In this document: positions 27,130 through 58,317 of the stretch, piece by piece
Position numbering within the stretch: position 1 is the stretch's first letter
How the letters are laid out: each line of letters starts with the position of its first letter
Origin: a virus
Virus record (IMG/VR): IMGVR_UViG_3300032311_000461
Span: 1 to 63,641 of that record
DNA length: 63,641 nt
Reading direction: 5' to 3' (one strand)
The notes under the pieces: generated by a model
What the model was told of the DNA's origin: nothing
Databases searched by the model: none
Seen by the model: only the letters and a program-made list of their open reading frames with translations
Position numbers and translations under genes: made by a program

Positions 27130-27581
27130 CCCCGTTTGTGTTTTTCGATTTACTCCAGCACCAGAACTAACAGATATACGCCCACACGCGGGGGGGCCCG
27201 GGAGCCCGCCTGCAAGCCCGCACAGGCCCGCGATTCTTCGCCCGCCCGCCCCTAGCCGCGACCGCCCGCCGCCCCGCAGAACCGCAGCCACGCGGCCACA
27301 CGGGCACTCCCGGGCATGGGCATGGCGTGGAAGCCCCGGTTGGCCCTTGGTTCCAAGGGGCAACCTCCCCACTTTTTGGGGGTTTTTCGGCTGACCAGCG
27401 GTGATTTTTTCACCACCCGGTGAACTTTTCCTCACCACCAAGGGGGGGTTTGTTGTCACCTTCGGTGGTCAGGCTGGCAGCTTTCCGCCACGGGCTGCGC
27501 GTTTGCGGTCATGGGCCCGCGCTGTCTTCCCCGGGTGTGTGCGTCCCCTCGCGTGCGCTGTCTTCGTGTGTGTGCGCCCGG
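27130..27581 (+). promoter_or_regulatory. Non-coding control region before the early genes
   Basis: No convincing gene. It holds a very C-rich stretch (27190-27300), a hairpin GCCCTTGG/CCAAGGGC (about 27342-27361), an intrinsic-terminator-like hairpin at 27366-27387, and a run of GGTGA/TCACC half-sites in both orientations (27400-27470), including GGTGA-T5-TCACC at 27400-27414. Closely spaced inverted pentamers next to an AT-rich stretch could be an operator array or replication origin. I see no good TTGACA/TATAAT promoter. Confidence 0.4.
27366..27387 (+). terminator. Intrinsic terminator-like hairpin
   Basis: TCCCC (27366-27370), loop ACTTTTT, GGGGG (27378-27382), then TTTTT. The stem is short (5 bp with one G-T pair) but is followed by a clean T-run. 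It would end transcripts from the HNH gene before the early block. Confidence 0.5.
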
Positions 27582-27608
27582 AATCCCCGGAGGGGATTTT
27601 GGCCCTCT
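27582..27608 (+). promoter_or_regulatory. GGA-hairpin / CCCTCTGG module A
   Basis: Stem AATCCCC/GGGGATT with triloop GGA (27582-27598), then TTGG and CCCTCTGG from 27603. First of eight copies with the same layout but different, compensating stem sequences. Downstream (27613-27657) a possible three-way fold closed by GTTGT/ACAAC exists, but it lacks the tRNA T-loop seen after modules B-E. Confidence 0.7.
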
Positions 27609-27670
27609 GGTTGTTGTCGGCAACGGCCAGTGTGGTCGCTGCGGCACAGCACACAACGGGAGGCACGGTC

Positions 27671-27874
27671 ATGCACACAGTCGAGCAGTACGTCAACGGG
27701 GAGTTCGTGGTGGCGGCACGGTTCACCGACATTCAGGACGCATACGAGTTCGCCAACGACATCGACGGGCTCGTCATCCCTGAAGGGATGACCGACGAGG
27801 GGGCGATTGCCAACCGGCGGCTGGATTTCATGGAGGCCGCTTGCGGGTGGTTCTGTGCGGCTGACGAGCGGTGA
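27671..27874 (+). CDS. Small acidic protein, early gene 1
   Basis: 67 residues, acidic (TDIQDAYEFANDIDGLVIPE). Preceded by CGGGAGG (about 10 bases before the ATG at 27671) and by module A. The upstream open frame to 27401 is non-coding in character. No family recognised. Confidence 0.6.
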   Translation: MHTVEQYVNGEFVVAARFTDIQDAYEFANDIDGLVIPEGMTDEGAIANRRLDFMEAACGWFCAADER

Positions 27875-27892
27875 GCCCTCGCACACACGCGG

Positions 27893-27921
27893 AGTCAGGG
27901 GACCTGACTGTGGCCCTCTGG
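27893..27921 (+). promoter_or_regulatory. GGA-hairpin / CCCTCTGG module B
   Basis: Stem AGTCAGG/CCTGACT, triloop GGA (27893-27909), then GTGG and CCCTCTGG at 27914-27921, leading into tRNA-like element B. Confidence 0.75.
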
Positions 27922-27927
27922 TTGGTG

Positions 27928-27973
27928 GCGGTGGCTGATCGGCAGCCTGACGGGTTCGATGCCCGTTCACCGC
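27928..27973 (+). ncRNA. tRNA-like element B (no anticodon arm)
   Basis: Outer stem GCGGTG (27928-27933) with CACCGC (27968-27973). Inside are a hairpin GCTG-ATCGG-CAGC (27934-27946) and a T-arm ACGGG-TTCGATG-CCCGT (27950-27966) with the standard 5-bp stem and 7-base TTCGANN loop. The first hairpin's loop contains GG, as D-loops do. There is no anticodon arm and no encoded CCA. The same architecture with different base pairs recurs at 28461, 29261 and 30130. Confidence 0.75.
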
Positions 27974-28009
27974 ACTGGGTTCGGTTGTCCATTCACGGGA
28001 GGAACGATC

Positions 28010-28414
28010 ATGCAAGGGGTCATGCGGCAGGCAGTGACGGGGCGGAAGATTGAGCAGCGCATGGAGCGGGCCATGCGATGGGGCTTTGAAGACTGGCGGC
28101 AGACGAACACTGCGGTCACTTCGTTCTACGAAGGGCCCCTGTGGGTGCAGGAAATTCGCCTGCACGGCAACCTGATTGCCCGGGTCGAAAGGGGCTGCAT
28201 CGGGACCCGAAAGTTCGGCCACCGTCAAGTGAAACTTGACCACTGCGGCTGGAAGACGGCGACCACGAAAAGCCGCATGAACGCAGTGCTGAAAGCACTC
28301 GACCTGCCCATCAGCGTGTACCAGAGCAAGGGCGAGTGGTTCCTCTGGAACCAGACGGCGACCGTTCCGGCTGGTCGCTTTGACGATTTCAACGTGATCA
28401 CGCTCAACCCGTAA
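28010..28414 (+). CDS. Hypothetical protein, early gene 2
   Basis: 134 residues from ATG at 28010 (GGGAGG 9 bases upstream). Basic at the start (TGRKIEQRMERAMRWGFEDW), mixed alpha/beta later (YEGPLWVQEIRLHGNLIARV). No membrane segment or known motif. Lies between tRNA-like element B and module C. Confidence 0.65.
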   Translation: MQGVMRQAVTGRKIEQRMERAMRWGFEDWRQTNTAVTSFYEGPLWVQEIRLHGNLIARVERGCIGTRKFGHRQVKLDHCGWKTATTKSRMNAVLKALDLPISVYQSKGEWFLWNQTATVPAGRFDDFNVITLNP

Positions 28415-28426
28415 TCACACACGCCT

Positions 28427-28455
28427 ACTCAACGGAGTTGAGTGTGGCCCTCTGG
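28427..28455 (+). promoter_or_regulatory. GGA-hairpin / CCCTCTGG module C
   Basis: Stem ACTCAAC/GTTGAGT, triloop GGA (28427-28443), then GTGG and CCCTCTGG (28448-28455). Confidence 0.78.
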
Positions 28456-28460
28456 TTGGC

Positions 28461-28506
28461 AGCGACGGTGATCGGCACCGTCCGGGGTTCGACTCCCCGG
28501 GTCGCT
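28461..28506 (+). ncRNA. tRNA-like element C (no anticodon arm)
   Basis: Outer stem AGCGAC (28461-28466) with GTCGCT (28501-28506); hairpin GGTG-ATCGG-CACC (28467-28479); T-arm CGGGG-TTCGACT-CCCCG (28483-28499) extended by one C-G pair. Pairing is complete in all three stems, with sequences different from the other copies. After the outer stem comes CTGTTTCG, also found after element D. Confidence 0.8.
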
Positions 28507-28547
28507 CTGTTTCGTGTTCGGTTGTCTCACACACAAGGGGTTTTCAC

Positions 28548-28808
28548 ATGACGGCTACGCAAATTCGGGCGGCACTTCAGGCGGAACGCGACGAGCTTTG
28601 CACCACCTTTGGCTTCGCCAACCGATGGACGGCGATGATTTTCCAGTGGTGCCGCGATGCGGGGTTTGGGGATGACGGCAGTGACCGGGAACTGGGCGAC
28701 ATTGCCTATGACCTGCGGGCCTTCGTGGAGGGGGCGAAAAACGTGCCCGCCTACCGGCTCGACAACGTGGACTTCGTGCAGATCGCACTCTGCTTGCAGA
28801 TCGACTAA
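28548..28808 (+). CDS. Small hypothetical protein, early gene 3
   Basis: 86 residues, helical and acidic (AALQAERDELCTTFGFANRW, GDIAYDLRAFVEGAKNVPAY). Ribosome site AAGGGG before the ATG, as in many genes of this block (ACACAAGGGG). The stop codon directly abuts hammerhead ribozyme 1. Confidence 0.65.
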   Translation: MTATQIRAALQAERDELCTTFGFANRWTAMIFQWCRDAGFGDDGSDRELGDIAYDLRAFVEGAKNVPAYRLDNVDFVQIALCLQID

Positions 28809-28860
28809 GGCCGAAACCGGGGAAACCCGGTCGCACCGTAACGCGGTGCCTGACGAGGCC
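28809..28860 (+). ncRNA. Type II hammerhead ribozyme 1
   Basis: All invariant parts are present in the right order: stem II 3' strand GGCC, GAAA (28813-28816), stem III CCGGG/CCCGG with GAAA tetraloop (28817-28830), TC before the cut (28831-28832), stem I GCACCG/CGGTGC with loop TAACG (28833-28849), CTGACGA (28850-28856), stem II 5' strand GGCC (28857-28860). Predicted cleavage is between 28832 and 28833. It starts right after the stop codon of the preceding gene. Confidence 0.9.
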
Positions 28861-28897
28861 ATTCGTCCCCCTGATTGGTCGATGGGGTCACTCGACT

Positions 28898-28938
28898 GCC
28901 TCCCGGTGGACGTTCCATCGGGGGGCTTTTCTTTTCTT
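28898..28938 (+). terminator. Intrinsic terminator
   Basis: A 13-bp stem (28898-28910 with 28914-28926, G-C rich with two G-T pairs) closing loop CGT, then TTTTCTTTTCTT. It follows hammerhead 1 and lies 20 bases before the next gene, so readthrough or a separate promoter is needed for expression of early gene 4. Confidence 0.75.
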
Positions 28939-28957
28939 CACGCGAAGGATCACACCC

Positions 28958-29227
28958 ATGTTGGTGCCTGACTATGACCGGATGATCGACGTTTTCCCGG
29001 GCGAAACCTATGAGGTTCTCATGCCCTATTCCGAAGTGTGTATGCACATGGGAATCGCGGGGACCGTTCGACGGATTCTGGTCCGCGAAGCGGGGCAGGG
29101 CGTTTACCTGCTGAACGATGACCTGACAACGGGCCCGCACATGACGAGCGGCGAGGCCGGGATTCTGGGTTGCTCACACAGCCATCCCTACACCTACGGG
29201 TTCAAGTACGAGCCCTCCCGTGCGTAA
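28958..29227 (+). CDS. Small hypothetical protein, early gene 4
   Basis: 89 residues, beta-prone (ETYEVLMPYSEVCMHMGIAG, RRILVREAGQGVYLLNDDL), with a His-rich segment CSHSHPYTYG. The ribosome site is CGAAGGA. The stop codon overlaps the first base of module D's hairpin. Confidence 0.65.
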   Translation: MLVPDYDRMIDVFPGETYEVLMPYSEVCMHMGIAGTVRRILVREAGQGVYLLNDDLTTGPHMTSGEAGILGCSHSHPYTYGFKYEPSRA

Positions 29228-29255
29228 TTCCCCGGAGGGGAATGTGACCCTCTGG
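29227..29255 (+). promoter_or_regulatory. GGA-hairpin / CCCTCTGG module D
   Basis: Stem ATTCCCC/GGGGAAT, triloop GGA (29227-29243), then GTGA and CCCTCTGG (29248-29255). Confidence 0.78.
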
Positions 29256-29260
29256 TTGGC

Positions 29261-29310
29261 AGCGGTTGGCTGACGGAAGCCTCTCCCCGGTTCGACTCCG
29301 GGGAACCGCT
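29261..29310 (+). ncRNA. tRNA-like element D (no anticodon arm)
   Basis: Seven-bp outer stem AGCGGTT (29261-29267) with AACCGCT (29304-29310), the length of a tRNA acceptor stem. Hairpin GGCT-GACGGA-AGCC (29268-29281), loop with GG. T-arm CCCGG-TTCGACT-CCGGG (29286-29302) plus one extra C-G pair. It is followed by CTGTTTCGGGTTCG. All stems differ in sequence from copies B, C and E while pairing is kept. Confidence 0.82.
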
Positions 29311-29346
29311 CTGTTTCGGGTTCGATCACACACAAGGGGCACCATC

Positions 29347-29676
29347 ATGGCATGGTCGATTTCGATTACAGCCGAAGGCTGGGCTGACATCCGCAAGGAA
29401 CTGGAAACGTGGGACCGGCAGCGGATTATCGACGCACTGGCTGACGATGCGTTTGAAGCTGCGGAGCAGGCCAACGGCGACGATGGCAAGGGCTACGAGG
29501 AAACCGTGTCGCCCGACGATGCGGCGGATGCCTGCCGTGCCAGTCTGGAATCGGCGGCGGATGACACGCTGGTTGACGCTGCGATGGACTGCATTGAGCG
29601 CAACAACACTTGCGACAACGGCGGCTTCCGGTACTGGATCGACCGGGAGGGGTATCACGGGGTAACGCTCGACTGA
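29347..29676 (+). CDS. Acidic hypothetical protein, early gene 5
   Basis: 109 residues from ATG at 29347 (ACAAGGGG upstream). Strongly acidic and helical (RKELETWDRQRIIDALADDA, AADDTLVDAAMDCIERNN). Acidic small phage proteins of this kind are sometimes DNA mimics or inhibitors, but nothing specific supports that here. Its stop is followed at once by hammerhead 2. Confidence 0.65.
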   Translation: MAWSISITAEGWADIRKELETWDRQRIIDALADDAFEAAEQANGDDGKGYEETVSPDDAADACRASLESAADDTLVDAAMDCIERNNTCDNGGFRYWIDREGYHGVTLD

Positions 29677-29678
29677 CA

Positions 29679-29730
29679 AGCCGAAACCGGGGCAACCCGG
29701 TCTGCCAGTAACGCTGGCACTGACGAGGCT
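29679..29730 (+). ncRNA. Type II hammerhead ribozyme 2
   Basis: Stem II AGCC (29679-29682) with GGCT (29727-29730); GAAA 29683-29686; stem III CCGGG/CCCGG with GCAA tetraloop (29687-29700); TC 29701-29702; stem I TGCCAG/CTGGCA with loop TAACG (29703-29719); CTGACGA 29720-29726. Cleavage is predicted between 29702 and 29703. Compared with ribozyme 1, stem I and stem II change sequence but keep pairing. Confidence 0.92.
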
Positions 29731-29755
29731 ACACACTCACAACGGGAGCCATTCA

Positions 29756-30097
29756 ATGGCCGAAAAACTGACGATTGGTGGCGTGGAAATCACGGTGGTG
29801 GCAGGCGACTGCGACCGGGAAGGCCGGACGGTTTTCACCTACACCCTGAAGGGTGCCGGGATCGACCACGAAGCCAGCGACCTGAAATCCGGCTGCGGTA
29901 GCAGGGGCCGGAAGGACCGTGACGGGATGGAATCCCTCCTGTCCTTCCTTGGTGCGGCGGCGGAAGCCTACGGATACCACCTTCGGATGGGCGGCGGGAG
30001 TGACAACGGCGACCTTTTCCCCCCGGAGGTCATGGAATGGGCCTATCAACACGACAACGAAATCAGCATGGCTGCCGACGAGTACGCATATGCGTAA
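29756..30097 (+). CDS. Hypothetical protein, early gene 6
   Basis: 113 residues, acidic alpha/beta (EITVVAGDCDREGRTVFTYT, FPPEVMEWAYQHDNEISMAA). The ribosome site is ACGGGAG. It is the first gene on the 3' product of hammerhead 2. No motif recognised. Confidence 0.65.
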   Translation: MAEKLTIGGVEITVVAGDCDREGRTVFTYTLKGAGIDHEASDLKSGCGSRGRKDRDGMESLLSFLGAAAEAYGYHLRMGGGSDNGDLFPPEVMEWAYQHDNEISMAADEYAYA

Positions 30098-30124
30098 CCA
30101 ACGGAGTTGGTTCTGGCCCTCTGG
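30096..30124 (+). promoter_or_regulatory. GGA-hairpin / CCCTCTGG module E
   Basis: Stem AACCAAC/GTTGGTT, triloop GGA (30096-30112), then CTGG and CCCTCTGG (30117-30124). It begins inside the stop codon of the preceding gene. Confidence 0.78.
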
Positions 30125-30129
30125 TATTC

Positions 30130-30178
30130 GACGGTTGTGGTTCGGCCACCGTCCGGGGTTCGATGCCCCGGAACCGTC
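30130..30178 (+). ncRNA. tRNA-like element E (no anticodon arm)
   Basis: Seven-bp outer stem GACGGTT (30130-30136) with AACCGTC (30172-30178). Hairpin GTGG-TTCGG-CCAC (30137-30149). T-arm CGGGG-TTCGATG-CCCCG (30154-30170) plus one extra pair. Followed by CTGTGTTCGATTG, similar to the sequence after the other copies. Confidence 0.82.
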
Positions 30179-30211
30179 CTGTGTTCGATTGCCCACACTT
30201 GGAGAGCGACC

Positions 30212-30526
30212 ATGACGAAACAGGAAGAGATTGACCTTCTCAAGACCTTTGTGGGCAACCTGCCCGAAGGGTATCTCAAGGATGCACTGGCACCGTTTGT
30301 GCCTGACTTTGAGTGTGGCATTCGTAGCGACATCGTGCCCTCAGTGTGGGATTCCTACCACGCTCGGGTCAAAGCTGACGAAGACCGGGATCGGTCAGAG
30401 CGGCTGGCCCGGATTGCAAAGTCTCAGGCCGACAAGGAAGAGCAACGTCTGCTTGCCGCACAGCGGGCGGTGGACGGCTATGCGGCTTCAATCAAGCAAA
30501 CGCTGCGGAGCTTGACCGGGAACTGA
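30212..30526 (+). CDS. Hypothetical helical protein, early gene 7
   Basis: 104 residues from ATG at 30212 (TTGGAGAG upstream). Helical and charged: MTKQEEIDLLKTFVGNLPEG, then 'YHARVKADEDRDRSERLARI' and 'DKEEQRLLAAQRAVDGYA'. A coiled coil in the C-terminal half is likely. Function unknown. Confidence 0.65.
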   Translation: MTKQEEIDLLKTFVGNLPEGYLKDALAPFVPDFECGIRSDIVPSVWDSYHARVKADEDRDRSERLARIAKSQADKEEQRLLAAQRAVDGYAASIKQTLRSLTGN

Positions 30527-30532
30527 CGGTAT

Positions 30533-30578
30533 CCAACCACCCTCTCCCTTCGGGGAGGGGGAAATTGGGGATCGTTGG
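30533..30578 (+). ncRNA. Structured intergenic hairpin with TTCG tetraloop
   Basis: Inner 9-bp stem CCCTCTCCC/GGGAGGGGG (30540-30548 with 30553-30561; one T-G pair) closing a TTCG tetraloop, with an outer CCAAC/GTTGG pair (30533-30537 with 30574-30578). No T-run follows, so it is not a classic terminator. It occupies the gap where other genes of the block have tRNA-like or hammerhead elements. Confidence 0.6.
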
Positions 30579-30602
30579 TTACACACACAAGAGGGTTCGA
30601 CC

Positions 30603-30995
30603 ATGAAATTCGACCGGAAATTCGACAAGTTTGTCGGCGTTGGGGACACGATCAAGGCAGACATCACCGACAAGATGCAACTCGTTGCCACTCTCGTCTA
30701 TGACGATCAGTGCCAGCCCACAGACTTCGACTGCTACGAGGAAGCCGACATTGAGCGGTGGAAGAATGACGAGTGGATTTTCGTGGGGATCGTGTTGTCC
30801 ATTCAATCGCACGACGGCACGATCCACACACGCCTTGATTCCCTTTGGGGAAACGAGGCCAACCTCGGTGACAACAACGATCACCTGACCGACGTTGCCA
30901 ACGAGTTGATTGACGAGCGGGACATCGTTGACGCACTGCGGAAGATTTACGAACCCGTAACCCGGGCGATTGAGACTCTCACACGCACAGCCTAA
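30603..30995 (+). CDS. Hypothetical protein, early gene 8
   Basis: 130 residues, acidic, alpha/beta (KFVGVGDTIKADITDKMQLV, WKNDEWIFVGIVLSIQSHDG). The ribosome site AAGAGGG is complementary to the CCCTCT of the preceding hairpin, so the site might be masked in some folds. The stop codon lies inside module G's hairpin. Confidence 0.65.
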   Translation: MKFDRKFDKFVGVGDTIKADITDKMQLVATLVYDDQCQPTDFDCYEEADIERWKNDEWIFVGIVLSIQSHDGTIHTRLDSLWGNEANLGDNNDHLTDVANELIDERDIVDALRKIYEPVTRAIETLTRTA

Positions 30996-31018
30996 CAGAG
31001 TTAGGCATGACCCTCTGG
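30990..31018 (+). promoter_or_regulatory. AGA-hairpin / CCCTCTGG module G
   Basis: Stem GCCTAAC/GTTAGGC, triloop AGA (30990-31006), then ATGA and CCCTCTGG (31011-31018). Instead of a tRNA-like element, an intrinsic terminator follows 20 bases later. Confidence 0.75.
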
Positions 31019-31038
31019 TTGGTATCGGTTGGATGACG

Positions 31039-31070
31039 GCCCCGGCAATTTCGCCGGGGCTTTTCTTTTT
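31039..31070 (+). terminator. Intrinsic terminator after module G
   Basis: Perfect 8-bp stem GCCCCGGC/GCCGGGGC (31039-31046 with 31053-31060), loop AATTTC, then TTTTCTTTTT. It ends 22 bases before the next ATG, so it lies in the leader of early gene 9 if transcription starts upstream. Confidence 0.85.
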
Positions 31071-31092
31071 CACACACAAGGGGACCGCAACG

Positions 31093-31467
31093 ATGGCAAA
31101 CGACAACTACACCGAGAACATGGCCGACATTTTCCAGTGCCCCCGGGAAAGGCGGATGGTGCTGGAAATCCTGAAGGCATGGGAGTCCGGCGGGCTGCCG
31201 AAGGACTTCGATGACAGGGGCGTGAAGCTGGCGTTCAACCGCAGTAGCGGCAACGTCTTCCTCGTCAACGAGGAATATCAGGTGGCAATGGTGGAGGGGC
31301 TCTGTCTGGAGTCCTTCTACTCCAGCCCATACGAGGGCAAGGAGGGGTTCTTCACCGACCTCCTGAGCGAGTACCCGTCGATGCACCGCGAGGATCAGGA
31401 GTGGTTCCGCGACATCGCAGAGGCGACCGGCAAGCAGGACTTGCTGCCCGCCTTGGACGACGAGTGA
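31093..31467 (+). CDS. Hypothetical acidic protein, early gene 9
   Basis: 124 residues from ATG at 31093 (ACACAAGGGG upstream). Acidic with aromatic patches (MADIFQCPRERRMVLEILKA, EGKEGFFTDLLSEYPSMHRE). No known motif. Its stop is followed by hammerhead 3. Confidence 0.65.
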   Translation: MANDNYTENMADIFQCPRERRMVLEILKAWESGGLPKDFDDRGVKLAFNRSSGNVFLVNEEYQVAMVEGLCLESFYSSPYEGKEGFFTDLLSEYPSMHREDQEWFRDIAEATGKQDLLPALDDE

Positions 31468-31469
31468 CA

Positions 31470-31566
31470 GGGCGAAACCGGGGCGGGCTGGGTAGGGGCA
31501 TTGCGTCCCCACTAAATCCGGCAAGCCTGCCCCGGTCTGTGGGTACTTTCCCACACTGACGAGCCC
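31470..31566 (+). ncRNA. Type II hammerhead ribozyme 3 (long stem III)
   Basis: Stem II GGGC (31470-31473) with GCCC (31563-31566); GAAA 31474-31477; stem III extended to 11 bp (31478-31488 with 31525-31535) and enclosing an extra hairpin (GGGG/CCCC, about 31495-31510); TC 31536-31537; stem I TGTGGG/CCCACA with loop TACTTT (31538-31555); CTGACGA 31556-31562. Predicted cleavage is between 31537 and 31538. The core is identical to ribozymes 1 and 2 but all helices differ. Confidence 0.9.
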
Positions 31567-31581
31567 ATTACGAGGTGCAGC

Positions 31582-32043
31582 ATGAAGCGGTATCAGGTGC
31601 GGTTCCACCTTGCCAAAGGTGAAAACCACGGGAAGTGGCAGGTCAAGAGCATGGCCGGGGTGCGGTACTACGATCCCGCTGCCGTGAGCCTGACCCTGTT
31701 GGATTGCCAACTGCGGAACCAACCCGCGACGGCAAAGAAGGTCTATGACGGTGCGAACAAGTCGGTGTGTGCGTGGATCGACTGCAACGAGGTGCTGACG
31801 GCAGCACCGCACACCCCGGCGGGACTGCCGGTGTCCTACGATCCCCGGGTTGCACCGCATTGGCGGAACCTGACGGGCGGGAACATCGACGGCATGAGCC
31901 TGTCTGTCCTGCGGACGGTGAGCAAGAGCGTGTTCTTTACGGGAGAGCGGACGATCACAGTCGGCGGTCTGGTGCAGCTTGCACCACCGGCTGATGAGCG
32001 GGAGGAAGAACTGCGGATGACCCGCATGAGGAGGGAGCGATGA
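31582..32043 (+). CDS. Hypothetical protein, early gene 10
   Basis: 153 residues, basic at both ends (MKRYQVRFHLAKGENHGKWQ; EEELRMTRMRRER), beta-rich in between. It begins with 'RYQVRFHLAKG' and has 'RYYDPAAVSLTLLDCQLRN'. ACGAGGTG precedes the ATG. The end overlaps the next start as ATGA. Confidence 0.65.
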   Translation: MKRYQVRFHLAKGENHGKWQVKSMAGVRYYDPAAVSLTLLDCQLRNQPATAKKVYDGANKSVCAWIDCNEVLTAAPHTPAGLPVSYDPRVAPHWRNLTGGNIDGMSLSVLRTVSKSVFFTGERTITVGGLVQLAPPADEREEELRMTRMRRER

Positions 32044-32261
32044 GCCACACAACGACGATGATGGACCTGACCCGGGGTGAGCTTTCCATCCTTGCTACCG
32101 CTCTTGAGAGAGAGTGGCAGCGGACTGGCAAGCTGTGGACCGATGGTAACCGGGACGGTTGGTATGACGAGAAGGCGAAGGAGCGGGTGGCCGTCCACCT
32201 GCATGAGACTGAGCGGCTTTTCAACAAGGTAAACACACGCATCAAGGAGCTTGACGCATGA
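32040..32261 (+). CDS. Small helical protein, early gene 11
   Basis: 73 residues, helical (MMDLTRGELSILATALEREW, KAKERVAVHLHETERLFNKV). Translationally coupled to the preceding gene by ATGA. Function unknown. Confidence 0.62.
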   Translation: MSHTTTMMDLTRGELSILATALEREWQRTGKLWTDGNRDGWYDEKAKERVAVHLHETERLFNKVNTRIKELDA

Positions 32262-32279
32262 ACTGGTAACGCACACACG

Positions 32280-32308
32280 GCTCAACAGAGTTGAGCATGA
32301 CCCTCTGG
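32280..32308 (+). promoter_or_regulatory. AGA-hairpin / CCCTCTGG module I
   Basis: Stem GCTCAAC/GTTGAGC, triloop AGA (32280-32296), then ATGA and CCCTCTGG (32301-32308), followed by a terminator. Confidence 0.75.
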
Positions 32309-32319
32309 TTGGTATCTGA

Positions 32320-32351
32320 CCCCCGGCAATTTCGCTGGGGGTTTTTCTTTT
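32320..32351 (+). terminator. Intrinsic terminator after module I
   Basis: Stem CCCCCGGC/GCTGGGGG (32320-32327 with 32334-32341, one G-T pair), loop AATTTC identical to that of the module G terminator, then TTTTTCTTTT. It lies 16 bases before the next ATG. Confidence 0.82.
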
Positions 32352-32367
32352 AACAAGGGGATGAGCG

Positions 32368-32781
32368 ATGGCAACGTCAGACATTATTGCGGCAATGGCA
32401 GCGGGCACCACGGCGACGGCAACCAAGCGGGTTGGACGGGGCAAGGCGGCGGTGGAGGTGACCATCACCCGGACTGCCCCGGAGGTGGTGGTGGTGGACG
32501 AGACAGTGAAGGAGGAGCCGGTCAGCTACAGCAACAAGCTGCCGGTGGACGAGGGCAAGCGGGCGGTGGATGTGCTGCCGGGGCTGCGACTGTGGGCCTA
32601 CTCCCGGGGCTATCGAGTCTTGGAGCAGACCGGAAAGACCTACACCGGCAGCAAGGCAAAGCTGCGGCGGGTTCTGTACCGGGATGACCTGATCCACCTC
32701 GCCAACATCCTGTTGGAAGAAGCGGAGAACACGCTGACCTATGACGAGGCTCACGGCAATGCGGATGCCGTGCCCTTCTAG
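32368..32781 (+). CDS. Hypothetical protein, early gene 12
   Basis: 137 residues. The first 60 are Ala/Thr/Val-rich and low complexity (AAMAAGTTATATKRVGRGKA), the rest a compact alpha/beta region (LRLWAYSRGYRVLEQTGKTY, RRVLYRDDLIHLANILLEEA). ACAAGGGG precedes the ATG. Unknown function. Confidence 0.62.
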   Translation: MATSDIIAAMAAGTTATATKRVGRGKAAVEVTITRTAPEVVVVDETVKEEPVSYSNKLPVDEGKRAVDVLPGLRLWAYSRGYRVLEQTGKTYTGSKAKLRRVLYRDDLIHLANILLEEAENTLTYDEAHGNADAVPF

Positions 32782-32797
32782 TCCTGCGGCCCACTGC

Positions 32798-32834
32798 CAA
32801 CTCCCGTGACTGAGACACGGGAGCCAGTTGTGGA
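32798..32834 (+). ncRNA. Intergenic hairpin, possible degenerate RNA element
   Basis: Eight-bp stem CTCCCGTG/CACGGGAG around loop ACTGAGA (about 32802-32824), flanked by AACT/AGTT, then GGGGTTCGATGAC, which looks like half of a T-arm without its 3' strand. It may be a decayed relative of the tRNA-like elements. Confidence 0.4.
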
Positions 32835-32863
32835 TCGGGGTTCGATGACACAGGAGACACACG

Positions 32864-33466: not shown

Positions 33467-33789
33467 TGAACCGGCAAGAGATGTTGCGAAAGCAGGGAAC
33501 GACGCGGCTGTGGCGGGAGCGGGTTCCCTTTATGAAAGAGGAGCGTTGCTCCAAGGTCCGGGTGCTGGGCATCGCACCCTTCACCATCGACAGGGTGGAA
33601 GGGACTTACCTTGTGGAGTTCAACGCTCACACGGGGAAGTCGCTGACCTACGGTGAGATGTACCGGGTGCCGGTGGTTGCGTTCGACCTGCGTTACCCGG
33701 ATGGCAAGGTGGTGCGTTACCAATCCCTGCGGCAAGCACGGGCGGCGGCTGCCCTGATGGCAGCGGAACGAAGAAAGGTGGTGAAGTGA
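33466..33789 (+). CDS. Hypothetical basic protein, early gene 14
   Basis: 107 residues from ATG at 33466, which shares its A with the upstream TGA. Basic, beta-rich (PFTIDRVEGTYLVEFNAHTG, RVPVVAFDLRYPDGKVVRYQ) with a helical end (LRQARAAAALMAAERRKVV). Unknown. Confidence 0.62.
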   Translation: MNRQEMLRKQGTTRLWRERVPFMKEERCSKVRVLGIAPFTIDRVEGTYLVEFNAHTGKSLTYGEMYRVPVVAFDLRYPDGKVVRYQSLRQARAAAALMAAERRKVVK

Positions 33790-33974
33790 TGAAGCGGACG
33801 CTTGAGTTGGCGCAGGTCGGGGCACTGAATGGTGTCGGTGTCGGATACCGGGTGGTCAAGCTGACCAATACGGTGGAGCCCTGCATCGGGGAGTATCTCA
33901 GCACCAGTGAGGTGAAGGATTTCATTCGCCGTCCGGGTTGGACGGTGGTCATCAAGAAAGGGAACGGTGAGTGA
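33789..33974 (+). CDS. Small hypothetical protein, early gene 15
   Basis: 61 residues (MKRTLELAQVGALNGVGVGY ...). Beta-rich, with a short 'SEVKDFIRRPGWTVVIKKG' end. Start shares its A with the upstream stop (TGATG). Confidence 0.6.
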   Translation: MKRTLELAQVGALNGVGVGYRVVKLTNTVEPCIGEYLSTSEVKDFIRRPGWTVVIKKGNGE

Positions 33975-34252
33975 TGGCAACGATTCGACTGCAATCCCTG
34001 AAGGGGGAGAAGCGAGAAGGGTTCACGCCGATGGGTGTTCACACCCCCGGCCTGATCGGCTGGGCAGTAGCTGGGTTCACGGGCAATGGGAATGATCCCA
34101 TTGTGCGGATCATCGCGGAGTCCTTCAGCCTCAAGCGGGAGGTGGCACTGGCCATCCTGACCGGCGAGGTGGACTACCGGGTGGACGGGGACGATGTGGT
34201 GTTCGACTGGCCGGGGGATGACCCCATTGTCAAGGAGGTGAGCGGTGGATGA
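33974..34252 (+). CDS. Small hypothetical protein, early gene 16
   Basis: 92 residues. 'HTPGLIGWAVAGFTGNGNDP' followed by a helix-rich part with 'AESFSLKREVALAILTGEVD', which has the spacing of a helix-turn-helix but is not convincing. Coupled to both neighbours. Confidence 0.6.
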   Translation: MATIRLQSLKGEKREGFTPMGVHTPGLIGWAVAGFTGNGNDPIVRIIAESFSLKREVALAILTGEVDYRVDGDDVVFDWPGDDPIVKEVSGG

Positions 34253-34427
34253 GGACATCAAGGTGAATCTGGAGGGGCTAAAGTTCATGGCCCGTCTGGT
34301 GGATGCGGTGGTGCAACTGAGGCAGTACATCCACACCCATACCCCGGGAGGATGGGAAGGGTATGACTATGCCGATAAGGTCGATCAACTTTTAAGCGAA
34401 GCAGATGCCTTCGGGGAGGACGAGTGA
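34245..34427 (+). CDS. Small helical protein, early gene 17
   Basis: 60 residues with a GTG start at 34245, preceded by AAGGAGGTGAG. Helical and acidic (DEDIKVNLEGLKFMARLVDA, DKVDQLLSEADAFGEDE). Confidence 0.6.
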   Translation: MDEDIKVNLEGLKFMARLVDAVVQLRQYIHTHTPGGWEGYDYADKVDQLLSEADAFGEDE

Positions 34428-34597
34428 TGGACTGTTCGATTTGTGGGAAGCCGATCCCCGCTGTTGGGGACTGGACTGAGGGTAACAGTGCGGAGCCCGT
34501 GAATGACGGGCGGTGCTGCGACCAATGCGACATGGCTGTGGTGATCCCGGCCCGCATTCAAGAGATGAAGCAACGCAGAAAGGTAGGTGGCAAGTGA
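34427..34597 (+). CDS. Small zinc-ribbon protein
   Basis: 56 residues from an ATG sharing its A with the upstream stop. It has Cys pairs CSIC (residues 3-6) and CCDQC (about 34-38), typical of a small treble-clef/zinc ribbon, and a basic C-terminus (QEMKQRRKVGGK). It could bind nucleic acid or a partner protein. Confidence 0.65.
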   Translation: MDCSICGKPIPAVGDWTEGNSAEPVNDGRCCDQCDMAVVIPARIQEMKQRRKVGGK

Positions 34598-34908
34598 GGA
34601 CAACGATGACTCTGGTGCTGGCCCTTGTGGCTGGCGTGGCACAAGCACAGTACCCCTACGTCCAGCCGGGATGGGGGTACTGGAACAAGGCGGAAGCCAT
34701 GCGACAGCAAGCGTGGCAGAACCAACAGTGGCAGCGGGATCAGTGGCAGCGTGAGCGTGACTACCTTTGGGGCGGCGACTCCATTGACTACGGGCAGCGG
34801 GCAGCCAACCTTCGCAAGACAAAGGAGGAAGCGAGGGGCCTGCGATTGCAGAACGACAGGATGGAAAGCCAAGGCAACCCATACCTGAACAATCCGTTTG
34901 AACGATAG
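34594..34908 (+). CDS. Small secreted protein with Gln/Trp/Arg repeats
   Basis: 104 residues from GTG at 34594 (GTGA overlap with the upstream stop). Signal peptide MRTTMTLVLALVAGVAQA with cleavage after AQA. The mature part is rich in Gln, Trp and Arg (QQAWQNQQWQRDQWQRERDY). An exported early protein could act at the cell surface, for example against superinfection; this is speculation. Confidence 0.62.
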   Translation: MRTTMTLVLALVAGVAQAQYPYVQPGWGYWNKAEAMRQQAWQNQQWQRDQWQRERDYLWGGDSIDYGQRAANLRKTKEEARGLRLQNDRMESQGNPYLNNPFER

Positions 34909-34949: not shown

Positions 34950-34978
34950 AGGTAACGGAGTTACCTCTGGCCCTCTGG
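34950..34978 (+). promoter_or_regulatory. GGA-hairpin / CCCTCTGG module J
   Basis: Stem AGGTAAC/GTTACCT, triloop GGA (34950-34966), then CTGG and CCCTCTGG (34971-34978). It lies just downstream of a promoter and just upstream of a terminator, so it would be the 5' end of the leader RNA. Confidence 0.78.
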
Positions 34979-35002
34979 TTAGTAGCAGCAACAACGGACT
35001 TG

Positions 35003-38020: not shown

Positions 38021-38495
38021 CCACCTGCCGGGTGCTGATCCCTCTGTCCCGTGCCATCTGCCGGATGCTGGTGCCTTCTATGACATGATCCGTGATCCAC
38101 TGCCGGTCCTCGGGAGGCATGGCATGGAGGGCAACCAGCATCTCGGCAGTGTGGCCGTCATCACTCTCTAGGTCCCGGGCTGGAATCTTTCTCTCTATGA
38201 CTTCCAGCGTTACCCGGTAGGCGACCATCCCTCCCAGCCCGCCATTGGATCGCAACTCTGTCCTGCAACTCTTGAGCAACTCATGCAGGATCGCCCGGGA
38301 GAAGTACCCCCTCAACTCCCGGGACGGGTCATACGTCCTCGCCGCCAACACACAGGCGAAGCGGGCGGCACTCTCTAGCTCTTCCCTGTCCACCACTTCT
38401 CTCAGGCATGGATAGGACCCAAGGAAATAATGCAGGCACGGAGTGATTAACTCCAGAGCCTGCTCTGCGTAACCCTGCTGGTCTTGTGTGAGCAT
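37938..38495 (-). CDS. Sigma-70-like RNA polymerase sigma factor
   Basis: 185 residues. Residues 38-80 (ELESAARFACVLAARTYDPS, GYFSRAILHELLKSCR) correspond to region 2, and 125-170 (LHAMPPEDRQWITDHVIEGT, IRQMARDRGISTRQVAKLMA) to region 4 with its helix-turn-helix. There is no region 1 and no recognisable phage RNA polymerase, so it probably redirects host polymerase, for example to the three CCGGGACATAARTA sites before late clusters. It is the last gene of the leftward middle operon. Confidence 0.78.
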   Translation of the reverse strand: MLTQDQQGYAEQALELITPCLHYFLGSYPCLREVVDREELESAARFACVLAARTYDPSRELRGYFSRAILHELLKSCRTELRSNGGLGGMVAYRVTLEVIERKIPARDLESDDGHTAEMLVALHAMPPEDRQWITDHVIEGTSIRQMARDRGISTRQVAKLMAAKLERLRKTAVSFRVQPGAGMP

Positions 38496-42254: not shown

Positions 42255-42782
42255 TTACCCTGCCCGTGATTTTTGGTCAAGGGTTAGGTCAACAGATTTC
42301 TCGTACCGTTTTGTTTTTGTTCCGGTCATGTCGATGTATGCGTTGCAGCGGTTGGCCACACCACCGTTGATGGTTGCTTGGGTGTTGGTGTTGGCGATTC
42401 GCATGGGCACAACAAACTCCCCATCTTCCGCCAGCTTGCGAACGAGTAGCACCTGCGAAGGGACCAGATAGAGGAAGCCAACCAGAGGGATGCACAAGCC
42501 GTGGGCCAACTGCTTGGCTTTCTCCAGCTTGGAGAACGTCACCAGCCACTCACCCGCGAAGTCCTCAAAGAACACGCTCTCCTCAACGATGCGGCACTTG
42601 GTTTCAACCAGAGCCGCTATGCCATTGCCGTTGATCAGGATGCCGTCTACGGGGCAGGGGGAGTCCTTGTCGGTGGGAGCGTATGCCCACCCCGGATTGA
42701 ACCCCTGCCACAGCGCAACGGCATCATGCTCTTGGCGAAGGGACTCCTGACCACGGGGAGTGTTGATGTCGAGGCTCACCAT
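42255..42782 (-). CDS. PD-(D/E)xK nuclease-like protein
   Basis: 175 residues. 'CPVDGILINGNGIAALVETK' followed by CR shows the D...E-x-K catalytic pattern, and 'EHDAVALWQG' may supply the first acidic helix. The C-terminus (NTNTQATINGGVANRCNAYI) is unusual but may be part of the fold. Overlaps the helicase stop. It could be a resolvase or nuclease partner of the helicase. Confidence 0.66.
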   Translation of the reverse strand: MVSLDINTPRGQESLRQEHDAVALWQGFNPGWAYAPTDKDSPCPVDGILINGNGIAALVETKCRIVEESVFFEDFAGEWLVTFSKLEKAKQLAHGLCIPLVGFLYLVPSQVLLVRKLAEDGEFVVPMRIANTNTQATINGGVANRCNAYIDMTGTKTKRYEKSVDLTLDQKSRAG

Positions 42783-44353
42783 TGGCCCACCCCCCGCTCT
42801 TCAAGGGCCTTCATCCGCCGGTCCACTTCCTGCTTGAAGGCGACCGTCCACATGGCGTTCAACTTGGCATCCCTGAGGGCCCACTGGAGCCACGACAATG
42901 GGATGGCAGGGTCCCGTAGGGGGCGACGTTTCCACTTGCCAAAGGGAACGTAGTAGCCCTTGATCTTGGGGGTCTTAACGTCCGGCCTGTCGAACAGGTC
43001 CCGGGACCGGGAGTCGAACGTGACCCCGACCACACAGGACTTCCTCCGCTCCCGCTCGGCCTCCCGCTCCAGCCGCTCCATCTCCTTGAGGGCATCAAGC
43101 TCGGCCTGAAGGGCAGCGTCGAGTTCATCCAGCGTGACTTCCTCGTCAGCGTTGTCCTGCTTGATTTTGTCGATGATTTCCTTGGGGCCAGCCAGCAACA
43201 TATCTATGGCAGTGACCGGGGAGTGGAACCGGCTGGTGTTCGTGATGTCATGGAAATCCCATGTGGGCTTGGCACTGGCAGCGATGGCAGCGATCCTCTC
43301 CTCTGCCGTGTTCAGCCCATCCAGAGTCCCGGTCAGTGCCCGTGTGCCCCGGCCCAGTCCTTGGAGGAACGTGCCCTTATGCTTGGTGGGGGCCGCATTA
43401 AAAATCTCGTTGACCATTGGGCAATCCCAACCCCTCCCCAAGACACGGCAGTTGGTGATGAGCGTGTTCTCCCCGCTCTCAAACTTCTTGATCTCAAGGT
43501 CCCGCTCCTCCGGTGGTTGCTCACCCCACACGCACGACACCTTCAATCCATAGCGGTCGGTCAGCATCTCCCTGATGGCCTTGGCTTGGGGCACAGACCG
43601 GCAGCGGATCACCCCGTGGGACTTCTTGTGGTGCTGCACAACAAGCTGGCAGATGTCATTCCTGACTGCCTCGGACATGAGGATGCCGTCGATCTCATGG
43701 GGCAGGAAGTCAACCTTGGTCTTGGACAGTTCATCGAAGTTGATGGACCGCACCGTGTGGACAGTCACCCTTGGCTTGACCAGCCAGCCCTGTGAGAAAG
43801 CCTCGCTCAACTCCATGCTGTAGGGGCATGAGGTATAGAAGCCGAACAGCGGGCTCCGCTTGTCGGCGCGTTGGGGAGTCGCGGTTACTCCCAGCACCCG
43901 TGCCCCGGCAGCAATGAACTCCTGCATCATCTCCCTGAATTTCACAGAGAAATGGATGTCAGCCTCGTCAATGATGATCAGGTCAACGTGCCCCACGAAA
44001 CGCTTGTAGCGACCGTCACTCTTGAGGGTCTGGTGGGTGGCGACGATCCACTCATCACCCGGGTCAGCCTTGAGCATGGCCTGCTCGACACTGGCAACCC
44101 GGCCCCGGAGCCTGCGGATGGTGGCCACGGTCTGCTTATTCACATTGTCTTGACCCGACACCACCATCACCCGTGCCCCTTCGCGGGGCAGGGCGACGAA
44201 CGTGGTGGTTTTGCCGACACCCGTAGGCAGGACGAGAAGGACCGCTTGGTTCCCCTCCCGAAATGCCTGCCGGATGGCGACGATGGCTTCCTTCTGGTAG
44301 GGGCGAAGAACTTCAGTGTCGAACAGGGGCAGGAAGACTTGTCCTTTCCTCAT
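42776..44353 (-). CDS. SF2 DEAD/DEAH-type helicase
   Basis: 525 residues from ATG at 44353 (ATGA overlap with the HNH stop). Motif I LPTGVGKTTT at about 42-51, motif II IIIDEADIH at about 130, motif III VTATPQR, motif VI QGLGRGTRA at about 330. The order matches RecG/ResIII-like ATPases. A charged coiled stretch (LDALKEMERLEREAERERRK) follows the helicase domain. It is the only recognised replication-type motor in the genome; with ERF and RecE-like proteins it may serve recombination-dependent replication. Confidence 0.9.
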   Translation of the reverse strand: MRKGQVFLPLFDTEVLRPYQKEAIVAIRQAFREGNQAVLLVLPTGVGKTTTFVALPREGARVMVVSGQDNVNKQTVATIRRLRGRVASVEQAMLKADPGDEWIVATHQTLKSDGRYKRFVGHVDLIIIDEADIHFSVKFREMMQEFIAAGARVLGVTATPQRADKRSPLFGFYTSCPYSMELSEAFSQGWLVKPRVTVHTVRSINFDELSKTKVDFLPHEIDGILMSEAVRNDICQLVVQHHKKSHGVIRCRSVPQAKAIREMLTDRYGLKVSCVWGEQPPEERDLEIKKFESGENTLITNCRVLGRGWDCPMVNEIFNAAPTKHKGTFLQGLGRGTRALTGTLDGLNTAEERIAAIAASAKPTWDFHDITNTSRFHSPVTAIDMLLAGPKEIIDKIKQDNADEEVTLDELDAALQAELDALKEMERLEREAERERRKSCVVGVTFDSRSRDLFDRPDVKTPKIKGYYVPFGKWKRRPLRDPAIPLSWLQWALRDAKLNAMWTVAFKQEVDRRMKALEERGVGQW

Positions 44354-44841
44354 GCTATGTGCCTCCAGCATTTCCCAGTTGCAATGCGGCTGATGGCTGA
44401 CTGACGAACTCCGTACACTTTGGCAATCGAAAGCTGTGGAAAACCAAGTTCGATAGCCCTGCGAATACAGCGAACGTCTTCAGCACTCAGCTTGCAGACC
44501 CCATCACGCCCCTTGTTGTGCATATCCTTTACGTTGTCCTTCGCCGTGCCAGCAAAAAGGTGCAGGTGGTTGCAGCAAACCGGGTTGTCACAGTGGTGGC
44601 AGACGTAAAGCCCATCTGGAACTGTGCCGTAGTGATGCTCGTAGGCAACCCTGTGGGTGCTGTACAGCTTCGCGTTGCCTTCGTATCGGCTCCCAACGCG
44701 AATGTTGCCGTACCCGTCCCCGCTGCAACCACCTGTCCACTCAAGGCACGGTGATCCATCCCATGCGTTGATGATGCTGGTCACGCACTTCCGCATGACT
44801 CGCTCGTAAGCTGGGATTGGAGTTGGCCCCTTCTTCCTCAT
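44350..44841 (-). CDS. HNH homing endonuclease
   Basis: 163 residues. The core is 'SPCLEWTGGCSGDGYGNIRV', 'STHRVAYEHHYGTVPDGLYV', 'CHHCDNPVCCNHLHLFAGTA' (HNH with zinc Cys), then 'KDNVKDMHNKGR', and a C-terminal helix-turn-helix (LSIAKVYGVRQSAISRIATG). It is inserted between csrA and the helicase with ATGA overlaps on both sides, so it integrates without breaking the operon. Confidence 0.88.
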   Translation of the reverse strand: MRKKGPTPIPAYERVMRKCVTSIINAWDGSPCLEWTGGCSGDGYGNIRVGSRYEGNAKLYSTHRVAYEHHYGTVPDGLYVCHHCDNPVCCNHLHLFAGTAKDNVKDMHNKGRDGVCKLSAEDVRCIRRAIELGFPQLSIAKVYGVRQSAISRIATGKCWRHIA

Positions 44842-45056
44842 GCGTCACCTCCTTGCCGATCTCGCTCCTCACGTTCTGCCTGCGCTTGAAGGGCCCCATA
44901 TTTTTTCACAAGCTCTTCACGCAGAATTACATACTCGGGCGGCGCGTCGATGCCGATGCGGACAGCACCACCGCTCGACACGTTGGTCACCGTGATCCTG
45001 ATGCCGCCCGGTTCGATCACGATGGTCTGATTCACTCGTCTGCCTAGCACCAACAT
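44838..45056 (-). CDS. csrA: CsrA translational regulator
   Basis: 72 residues from ATG at 45056. The family sequence is clear: MLVLGRRVNQTIVIEPGGIR, then 'ITVTNVSSGGAVRIGIDAPP' and 'EYVILREEL', including the conserved N-terminal L-R-x-x-x-Q/E-I strand and the A-P-x-x-x-V-x-R-x-E-L (here APPEYVILREEL) RNA-binding end. CsrA dimers bind GGA in RNA hairpin loops or at ribosome sites. Eight hairpin modules of the early block carry GGA (six) or AGA (two) as triloops. GGAGG precedes the start. Confidence 0.95.
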   Translation of the reverse strand: MLVLGRRVNQTIVIEPGGIRITVTNVSSGGAVRIGIDAPPEYVILREELVKKYGALQAQAEREERDRQGGDA

Positions 45057-46298: not shown

Positions 46299-46315
46299 GT
46301 GTTACTCCTTTGTTA

Positions 46316-47937: not shown

Positions 47938-48088
47938 GAGGGTCAACAATCCTTTGTTTTCTGCGGGAAAAGCGAGGGGCAACGCACCCCCCCAAAATGC
48001 GTCCTTAACTAGAGGGGGCGGTGGCAAACCCCCCACTGCGTGGCACGGTTGGCCAAGCAACTTGAATGACACTCAACTGAGGGGAGCC

Positions 48089-52710: not shown

Positions 52711-52713
52711 TGA

Positions 52714-56504: not shown

Positions 56505-56779
56505 GCGTCTTCTTTCTTCTTGCGGCGGAATGGCAGATCGTTGTCGCCAAGATCGTCCTTCGTGACTTTCGGAGTCTTGGGCTTGCCGTTCTTGGCTTCC
56601 TTCAGATCAGCGAGGGACTTGGATTTCGCCTCATCCTTGTCCGCGTGTTCTTCCTTCTCTTCGTCGGTCTTCTTGCCGTAGGGAAGCTGGTTGCGCACGA
56701 TCCCGTTCAGCACCTTGCGGAGTTGCTTGGGGGTGAGGTCATCCAGATCAAGGCCCGAAATCGCTTGGTGGCTCATCAC
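56501..56779 (-). CDS. Small charged protein
   Basis: 92 residues, Lys/Glu/Asp-rich (DLDDLTPKQLRKVLNGIVRN, KTDEEKEEHADKDEAKSKSL). Probably helical or disordered. ATGA overlap with the next gene. Unknown function. Confidence 0.6.
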   Translation of the reverse strand: MMSHQAISGLDLDDLTPKQLRKVLNGIVRNQLPYGKKTDEEKEEHADKDEAKSKSLADLKEAKNGKPKTPKVTKDDLGDNDLPFRRKKKEDA

Positions 56780-56784
56780 TTCTC

Positions 56785-57246: not shown

Positions 57247-57248
57247 GG

Positions 57249-57668: not shown

Positions 57669-57671
57669 GGA

Positions 57672-58313: not shown

Positions 58314-58317
58314 GCCT

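Follow-up and report, generated by a model that had tools for sequence, protein, structure and literature searches.

In an uncultured tailed phage, small RNA cassettes separate the single genes of an early plus-strand operon, and we consider it likely that its transcript is cut between genes and that the cassettes double as seams at which genes are exchanged. Comparison with related phages gives the strongest new point: the RNA elements are fixed, and the genes between them are replaced. The elements are supported as real RNA structures, and cutting probably turns the long message into single-gene ones. The phage is IMG/VR record IMGVR_UViG_3300032311_000461, whose entire 63,641 nt constitute the window; the focus was on positions 27582-32351. 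Its nearest phage terminases are about 27% identical, and a host search by terminase and capsid across 84,980 genomes gave no match.

Ten of the 11 intergene gaps in 27582-32351 carry a structured element right after the stop codon, and the eleventh is the overlap of genes 9 and 10. With the conserved hairpin called element F counted, all gaps between separate genes are occupied. Every element starts at most 18 nt past a stop codon or overlaps it, and the elements, all in sense orientation, sit between single genes and abut their stop codons. The inventory comprises three hammerheads, four tRNA-like elements, seven of eight hairpin modules, three terminators, element F and a pseudoknot. A preliminary description had proposed that nearly every gap between the small plus-strand genes is structured and that the elements alternate with single genes, and both proposals hold. 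Its element list was right for hammerheads, tRNA-like elements, modules and terminators, and missed element F and the H-type pseudoknot.

The genes, all on the plus strand, begin with gene A (27671..27874, 67 aa) and gene 1 (28010..28414, 134 aa), which matches PF23790 Kyanoviridae Gp96 with an E value of 5.5e-17. These are followed by gene 2 (28548..28808, 86 aa), gene 3 (28958..29227, 89 aa), gene 4 (29347..29676, 109 aa), gene 5 (29756..30097, 113 aa; phrog_21648), gene 6 (30212..30526, 104 aa) and gene 7 (30603..30995, 130 aa; phrog_5644), the functions of both phrogs being unassigned in that resource. Gene 8 (31093..31467) encodes 124 aa, gene 9 (31582..32043) 153 aa, gene 10 (32040..32261) 73 aa and gene 11 (32368..32781) 137 aa.

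Hammerhead ribozymes and tRNA-like elements

The three hammerheads are of type II and on the plus strand: HHR1 (28809..28860, predicted cut 28832/28833), HHR2 (29679..29730, predicted cut 29702/29703) and HHR3 (31470..31566, with a long stem III and a predicted cut at 31537/31538). All match, in full and with perfect cores, a strict descriptor (core CUGANGA and GAAA, cleavage triplet NUH, and three stems of which only stem II is open) that has exactly three matches in the window and none in 20 shuffled windows. The preliminary description had named three type II hammerheads with RNA ends at 28833, 29703 and 31538, and these are indeed the first bases after C17 in HHR1, HHR2 and HHR3. The Rfam search that it proposed reported no hammerhead in the window at gathering thresholds and found HHR2 alone below them (RF02276, 31.1 bits against a cut-off of 37 bits), with HHR1 and HHR3 undetected even there. 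Rfam's own hammerhead model does pass in unrelated phage arrays. Model R2, built only from the hammerheads of 30 unrelated phages, gives 69.7 bits for HHR1 (E 4e-22), 69.5 bits for HHR2 (E 5e-22) and 50.3 bits for HHR3 (E 6e-15). Stems I and II covary within the phage group, where stem III is nearly invariant, and all three stems covary across unrelated phages. Given the intact cores and the covariation, the hammerheads would cut themselves between genes, and the predicted splitting of the transcript into single-gene messages at these sites is well supported.

Single-gene punctuation by hammerheads is general in phages. In 103 contigs there are 208 distinct type II hammerheads. A stop codon on the same strand is no more than 30 nt away from 183 of them, and 140 are followed inside 40 nt by a ribosome-binding site with a start codon; in the antisense control, the corresponding figures were 46/223 and 4/223. 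One unrelated phage, IMGVR_UViG_3300033551_000003, carries 31 hammerheads, all on one strand.

The tRNA-like elements B (27928..27973), C (28461..28506), D (29261..29310) and E (30130..30178), also on the plus strand, lack a D-arm and an anticodon arm and have one short middle arm only. The acceptor/T stack is about 12 bp (6-7 plus 6 pairs), and the T-loop UUCGANN is invariant in the 8 distinct sequences, partly paralogues, on which the structure is based. Aligned with relatives, the elements have both-side changes in 9 of 13 pairs and 96% of cells paired; the covariation score was reached by none of 500 shuffles, and slid controls were at most 55% paired. The four elements named in the preliminary description are confirmed, and their stems covary in related phages. 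Its suggested model search gave nothing further afield: a scan with model R1 of about 1 Mb, mostly from unrelated hammerhead phages, found none outside the group. ARAGORN called no tRNA in the window, and matches to the mascRNA-menRNA family (RF01684; 32.8 bits, E 0.00098, for element C, and 22.7 bits) fall below the gathering cut-off of 42.5.

We suspect that the tRNA-like elements could be cut by host RNase P, and possibly RNase Z, and the production of single-gene messages at these sites is plausible as a model. All copies have N-CUG after the acceptor stem, the 3' RCCA is absent, and one acceptor pair is broken in L171a. Cutting by RNase P is uncertain because of the missing RCCA and this broken pair.

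Hairpin modules, terminators and possible antitermination

The GGA/AGA hairpin modules, all on the plus strand, have a fixed geometry of a hairpin and then a box. GGA module 1 (27582..27614; stem AATCCCC/GGGGATT, GGA triloop, motif GGCCCTCTGGTTG) is in the leader before the first gene, and GGA modules 2 (27893..27925; stem AGTCAGG/CCTGACT) and 3 (28427..28459) follow in the operon. GGA modules 4 (29227..29259) and 5 (30096..30128) overlap the stop codons of genes 3 and 5, and the stop codon of gene 7 lies within a hairpin arm of AGA module 6 (30990..31022). AGA module 7 is at 32280..32312. GGA module 8 (34950..34982), beyond the focus range, precedes a terminator-like hairpin at about 34990; the preliminary description had likewise placed seven of the eight in the range. 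With relatives included, all 161 cells of the 7-bp stem are paired, and 58 of them are double-change cells. The loop is constant, and the motif after the hairpin is phage-specific. No module-like array occurs in 1.85 Mb of other phage DNA, and a motif scan of viral contigs gave mostly single chance matches, with the hairpin only in contigs L018 and L060. A DNA-level hairpin was considered for the module on the grounds that G-U pairs occur in 1/161 in the stems; this proved non-discriminating, as the stems of the tRNA-like elements are also nearly free of G-U pairs.

Intrinsic terminators on the plus strand at 28898..28936, 31038..31069 and 32318..32351 are the best three of 19 matches to a GC-rich hairpin plus T run (6.3 expected), and the preliminary description had correctly placed terminators in the gaps. 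It overlooked that several apparent terminators stand inside the operon, as it did the retention of elements while genes are swapped. The next gene begins within about 25-30 nt of every terminator; therefore transcription must read through. Just before terminator 1 is a plus-strand H-type pseudoknot (about 28868..28897; CCCC..GTCGA..GGGG..TCGAC), whose stem is GCCGA/TCGGC in relative G003. Element F (30524..30582, plus strand) is a conserved long hairpin, TGACGGYAYCC..CCACC, then a variable hairpin, then TTGGGGATCGTTG; a second, weaker F-like hairpin follows gene 11 at about 32785-32845. A gapped-pattern scan found the F structure, among the matches listed, in none outside the phage group. Beyond this group, the searches thus gave no tRNA-like, module or F element, for F among the matches listed.

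In the scenario that we favour, one long transcript would start upstream of module 1 and read through the internal terminators. After cutting, a hairpin or tRNA-like fold would sit beside the stop codon or at the new 5' end of each product, where it should slow exonucleases. Module and F hairpins probably serve as additional signals for 3' ends or processing, given that F shares a junction with a hammerhead of relatives and that a module adjoins the same pseudoknot-terminator block that is abutted by HHR1 in the window. Since the module motif differs between phages, a phage-specific factor probably reads it.

Transcription control could instead come first, with the modules acting as nut- or put-like sites that load an antitermination complex to pass the terminators. 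This would be compatible with hammerhead cleavage, with the modules rather than the cuts as the main function. Module 1 is in the leader ahead of the first gene, modules immediately precede terminators 2 and 3 as well as the hairpin at about 34990, and the next gene's ribosome-binding site comes after each terminator with no space for a promoter. A phage-specific motif beside a constant loop is also what recognition by a phage factor would lead one to expect. Lambda nut and HK022 put likewise pair a hairpin with a single-stranded motif and lie close to the beginning of an early operon that contains internal terminators. However, lambda nut has boxA and then boxB, and put RNAs have two hairpins; the modules have the reversed order, are present in multiple copies and correspond to no known factor. 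The lambda-type set of boxA, boxB with a purine-rich loop and N-like protein does not describe them, as their hairpin precedes the box. Four module copies precede tRNA-like elements, not terminators, and no antiterminator gene was identified in a less than detailed search for N-like proteins. We regard this explanation as possible but rather doubtful.

Alternatively, the tRNA-like, module and F folds may be exonuclease barriers or stabilisers of 3' ends left by hammerhead cuts, termination or random endonuclease cuts, and not be processed themselves. All are compact, GC-rich and directly behind stop codons, and the RCCA end for RNase P is absent, as this would predict. Preservation of the 12-bp acceptor/T stack and UUCGANN loop through double changes is a better fit to tRNA-processing enzymes, and we consider protection without processing unlikely.

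Conserved elements between exchanged genes

Related phages keep the RNA elements in the same places and order and differ in the intervening genes, with replacements whose limits coincide almost exactly with start and stop codons. Intergenic blocks are 95-100% identical between phages with unrelated flanking genes. For instance, HHR2 is identical in G002, where neither flanking gene (4, 5) has a match and where, as in G003, an unrelated gene stands in for gene 4. Module 5 with element E is 95.6% identical where genes 5 and 6 are absent. Gene 1, missing from G001 and G002, is part of an indel that also comprises module 3 and element C and has similar blocks on its two sides. One kind of element also takes the place of another: G001 and G003 have a hammerhead at the junction held here by element F (after gene 6), and the hammerhead that follows gene 11 in G001 and G002 corresponds to the F-like hairpin here. 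Of 35 homology breakpoints, taken from alignment ends in four genomes only, 20 are no more than 15 nt from a gene end, against 4.8 expected. Gene conservation varies between junctions, which counts against our favoured scenario; gene A has 95.6% nucleotide identity in G001 and G002.

As the elements remain conserved and in order, and genes turn over in almost exact start-to-stop units, the elements would also act as seams for exchanging genes, probably by homologous recombination. A broader proposal, which we put forward tentatively as a serious possibility, is that hammerheads, D-armless tRNA-like elements, GGA modules, F hairpins and the pseudoknot-terminator form a fixed series of interchangeable sockets that cut or finish the message of each gene separately and let accessory genes be exchanged precisely from start to stop; in that case the tRNA-like, module and F elements are new RNA families, with at least one new processing signal among them.

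If the blocks were recombination seams only, kept as homology arms for accessory genes, their folds would be relics or neutral. The coincidence of breakpoints with gene ends, the near-identical blocks beside unrelated genes, the indel around gene 1 and an Erf-like annealing protein encoded by the phage would all agree with this. However, the stems of hammerheads, tRNA-like elements and modules show compensatory changes on both sides, which require selection on the fold, and strict sense orientation and intact ribozyme cores are unnecessary for homology, which makes this account improbable. We find it very improbable that the tRNA-like elements serve to engage a host tRNA enzyme, or a defence nuclease that cuts tRNAs, as decoys or mimics: several copies do preserve the T-arm and acceptor stem, but there is no anticodon arm or CCA, and the fixed intergenic placement and association with modules fit punctuation better. 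That a phage RNA polymerase uses the modules as N4-type hairpin promoters is scarcely credible: the module geometry is fixed, and N4 virion RNA polymerase promoters also have a C(GGA)G triloop, but their purine-loop hairpin is on the template strand and the GGA loop here is on the coding strand of all plus-strand genes, an orientation that mostly excludes this reading; a polymerase motif set found nothing in twelve large proteins scanned, nor did Pfam polymerase searches in ten.

Relation to known systems

Structured RNAs between genes give rise to single-gene mRNAs in mitochondrial tRNA punctuation and in the RNase III punctuation of T7 early mRNA. The cutters proposed here differ, being self-cleaving ribozymes and mini tRNA-like folds, and the elements are kept while genes are exchanged. 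In prophages, several hammerheads, of which many are type II, lie on either side of a gene or a short block of genes, and it was proposed that they divide phage transcripts into mRNAs of one gene each (Perreault et al. 2011, PMC3088659); cleavage was shown in vitro and, for a triple array from A. tumefaciens, also in E. coli. Our phage resembles those prophages in having several type II hammerheads beside single genes. However, no other kind of element is described from them, whereas here tRNA-like elements, GGA modules, F hairpins and terminators come in alternation with the hammerheads, and loop I is a short UNANG-type pentaloop. The preliminary description had regarded an operon with both kinds of punctuation as new; hammerhead punctuation had already been proposed (PMC3088659), and no paper among those searched combined it with tRNA-like elements.

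The mascRNA is excised by RNase P and RNase Z (PMC4919922). Like mascRNA and menRNA, the present elements are tRNA-like, with T-arm and acceptor, and lie within a longer transcript, but they score below the family cut-off, are D-armless, belong to a bacterial virus and occur in four copies per operon. Self-cleaving ribozymes close to tRNA-type RNAs are also known in phages from HDV-like theta ribozymes, proposed to process real suppressor tRNAs beside which they lie (PMC10879173); that system has neither hammerheads nor tRNA-like elements between protein genes.

The role of phage hammerheads, a question since 2011, becomes testable with this locus and its relatives, which provide a natural operon with several kinds of punctuation, one kind replacing another at the same junction, and conserved blocks with swapped neighbours. 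The phage with 31 hammerheads shows the same strategy across a whole gene block and is a ready target for RNA-end mapping. The small cassettes could serve as parts for multi-gene constructs with independent messages. For the phages themselves, the arrangement suggests that accessory genes are insulated post-transcriptionally, in that a gene dropped between two RNA blocks would obtain its own message.

Arrangement of the RNA elements in the early operon

The IMG/VR virus record (63,641 bases, 58.7% GC) includes genes for terminase, portal, capsid, tail fibre, helicase, an Erf-like protein, exonuclease, integrase and resolvase. Most late genes lie on the minus strand, and a block of small plus-strand genes, from about 27.6 kb, holds the RNA elements. 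No isolated relative is known, and searches of 84,980 genomes with the terminase and capsid found no host genome. Gene 1 (28010-28414) resembles Kyanoviridae Gp96 (PF23790, E 5.5e-17), a family of proteins otherwise belonging to cyanophages. Three larger related genomes were compared: G001 (IMGVR_UViG_3300042348_000272), G002 (3300042866_000779) and G003 (3300042466_000580).

The RNA elements of this block exist, fold under selection and sit between genes. Each element overlaps the stop codon of the gene before it or begins no more than 18 nt downstream of that codon; for gene 7 this codon is part of the arm of module 6, a GGA/AGA hairpin module. From the end of an element it is 15-41 nt to the next start codon, or 97 nt where a pseudoknot and terminator intervene. 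Genes 9 and 10, which overlap, are the sole neighbouring pair in 27582-32351 without an element between them.

Hammerheads in the window and in other phages

The three type II hammerheads of the preliminary description, HHR1 (28809-28860), HHR2 (29679-29730) and HHR3 (31470-31566), all plus strand, were borne out: searching with a descriptor that demands the complete type II core plus all three stems returns these three and no others in the window, and none in 20 shuffled windows. In the Rfam search proposed in that description, no hammerhead of the window reaches the gathering threshold; below it, HHR2 matches RF02276 at 31.1 bits (E 0.0026 across all families, or 5.6e-6 when only this model is counted), and HHR1 and HHR3 go unreported. 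Because of this, we built a model on 30 hammerheads taken from unrelated phage contigs, leaving out the window's own phage group. It scores HHR1 at 69.7 bits (E 4e-22), HHR2 at 69.5 (5e-22) and HHR3 at 50.3 (6e-15), with E-values that are rough owing to a short calibration. The model's own stems are backed by 119 double-change cells, in members picked by a descriptor that itself requires pairing; within the window's phage group, 8 of 16 pairs in stems I and II covary. Loop I reads G-UNANG-C in both HHR1 and HHR2, as in 56 of 79 compact type II hammerheads of unrelated phages with a 17-nt stem I, a feature that played no part in their selection. Many such compact hammerheads may fall below the Rfam cut-off.

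A pattern scan of viral contigs matched at least 119 stretches; among the matches listed, 103 unrelated contigs contain 208 distinct type II hammerheads. Of these 208, 183 begin at most 30 nt from a stop codon on the same strand, and in 140 a ribosome-binding site and a start codon lie no further than 40 nt downstream; the corresponding opposite-strand control counts were 46 and 4 of 223. Arrays in unrelated phages repeatedly exceed Rfam's own cut-off with Rfam's own model. The extreme case, IMGVR_UViG_3300033551_000003 (loci L358, L359 and L215), carries 31 type II hammerheads, all on the same strand, in a stretch of 18.6 kb (42610-61243), about one per gene. Most lie directly 3' of a stop codon, with the next start 20-26 nt further on, and 7 of the 31 pass the cut-off. 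Several have the stop codon of the preceding gene within loop III, an arrangement that could couple cleavage to translation. Separately, a long intergenic stretch of a distant relative (L197, 13096-13322), near a gene pair separated by a hammerhead, has strong long-range pairing of CCGAATAGC with CTATTCGG and no Rfam match.

Modules, tRNA-like elements and terminators

The GGA/AGA modules, eight in the window with further copies in relatives, all combine a 7-bp stem unconstrained in sequence, a GGA triloop (AGA twice) and a motif at fixed distance. The motif is phage-specific: TGRCCCTCTGGTTGG in the window, mostly TGAGCCTCTGGTTGG in G001 and G002, and mostly CRCCCTGTTGGWTGG in G003. All 161 stem cells are paired, 58 of them with double changes. 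An examination of 1.85 Mb of other phage DNA showed no comparable arrays. HNH endonuclease genes are inserted along with a GGA module in G001 (34042-34782) and in another viral contig (L018, about 500-1360, minus strand), there in the late operon after terminase; the modules may travel with homing-type genes.

Each of modules 2 to 5 is followed directly by one of four tRNA-like elements. Aligned with relatives, these share a 7-bp acceptor stem, a 6-bp T stem and an invariant loop UUCGANN, with 96% of cells paired and double changes in 9 of 13 pairs; none of 500 shuffles reached the covariation score, and when the structure is slid, pairing does not exceed 55%. The covariation anticipated for these stems is present. 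The middle is a single short arm, with neither anticodon nor D arm; N-CUG, rather than RCCA, comes after the acceptor stem; ARAGORN does not call the elements as tRNA, and element C scores 32.8 bits against the mascRNA model. The proposed covariance-model search detected the element in each of the four larger genomes that belong to the phage group; the unrelated hammerhead phages gave no hits.

Element F, a conserved long hairpin absent from Rfam (window 30524-30582; G001 33963-34029; G002 38165-38232; G003 33603-33676), is flanked by TGACGG and TTGGGGATCGTT and occurs once in each relative, perhaps twice in the window. An H-type pseudoknot (28868-28900; CCCC..GTCGA..GGGG..TCGAC), with a compensatory change in G003 (GCCGA/TCGGC), lies directly 5' of terminator 1 and may serve in regulation or as a 3'-end structure. 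The three best terminators of the scan (28898, 31038 and 32318) each have a start codon close behind and no promoter space between, and transcription must therefore read through them, fully or in part. The leader (27540-27590) carries GUGUGUGUGCGC, which possibly pairs with ACACACGC or CACACAAGGGG, found in the gaps 5' of ribosome-binding sites.

Proposed processing and gene exchange

Hammerhead punctuation into single-gene mRNAs is known in kind, since prophages have multiple hammerheads flanking single genes, for which single-gene mRNAs were proposed, with cleavage in vitro and, for one array, also in E. coli (Perreault et al., PMC3088659). Known RNase P targets include tRNA-like folds of mRNAs, phage RNAs and MALAT1 (PMC4919922). 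The open-access literature, incompletely covered, yielded no account of hammerheads and tRNA-like elements in one operon. Here the hammerheads very probably self-cleave, and the tRNA-like elements have about an even chance of being cut by RNase P or RNase Z. Polymerase would, with high confidence given the missing promoter space, read through the terminators. More likely than not, a phage-specific factor reads the modules, perhaps for antitermination.

Element order in G001-G003 is largely that of the window, and the intervening genes are often unrelated. G002 has an identical HHR2 but nothing that matches genes 4 and 5, and its stretch of module 5 plus element E is 95.6% identical although genes 5 and 6 are without a match there; the pseudoknot and terminator 1 are 76% identical in G003, between different genes. 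Before gene 7, the place of F in the window is taken by a hammerhead in G001 and G003, and homology restarts where the element ends. Next to the pseudoknot, G003 has a module in the position of the window's HHR1. Homology breakpoints fall within 15 nt of a gene end in 20 of 35 cases against 4.8 expected, a count that is descriptive only because each breakpoint is where a BLAST alignment stops and the breakpoints are not mutually independent. The RNA blocks probably serve as seams for gene exchange.
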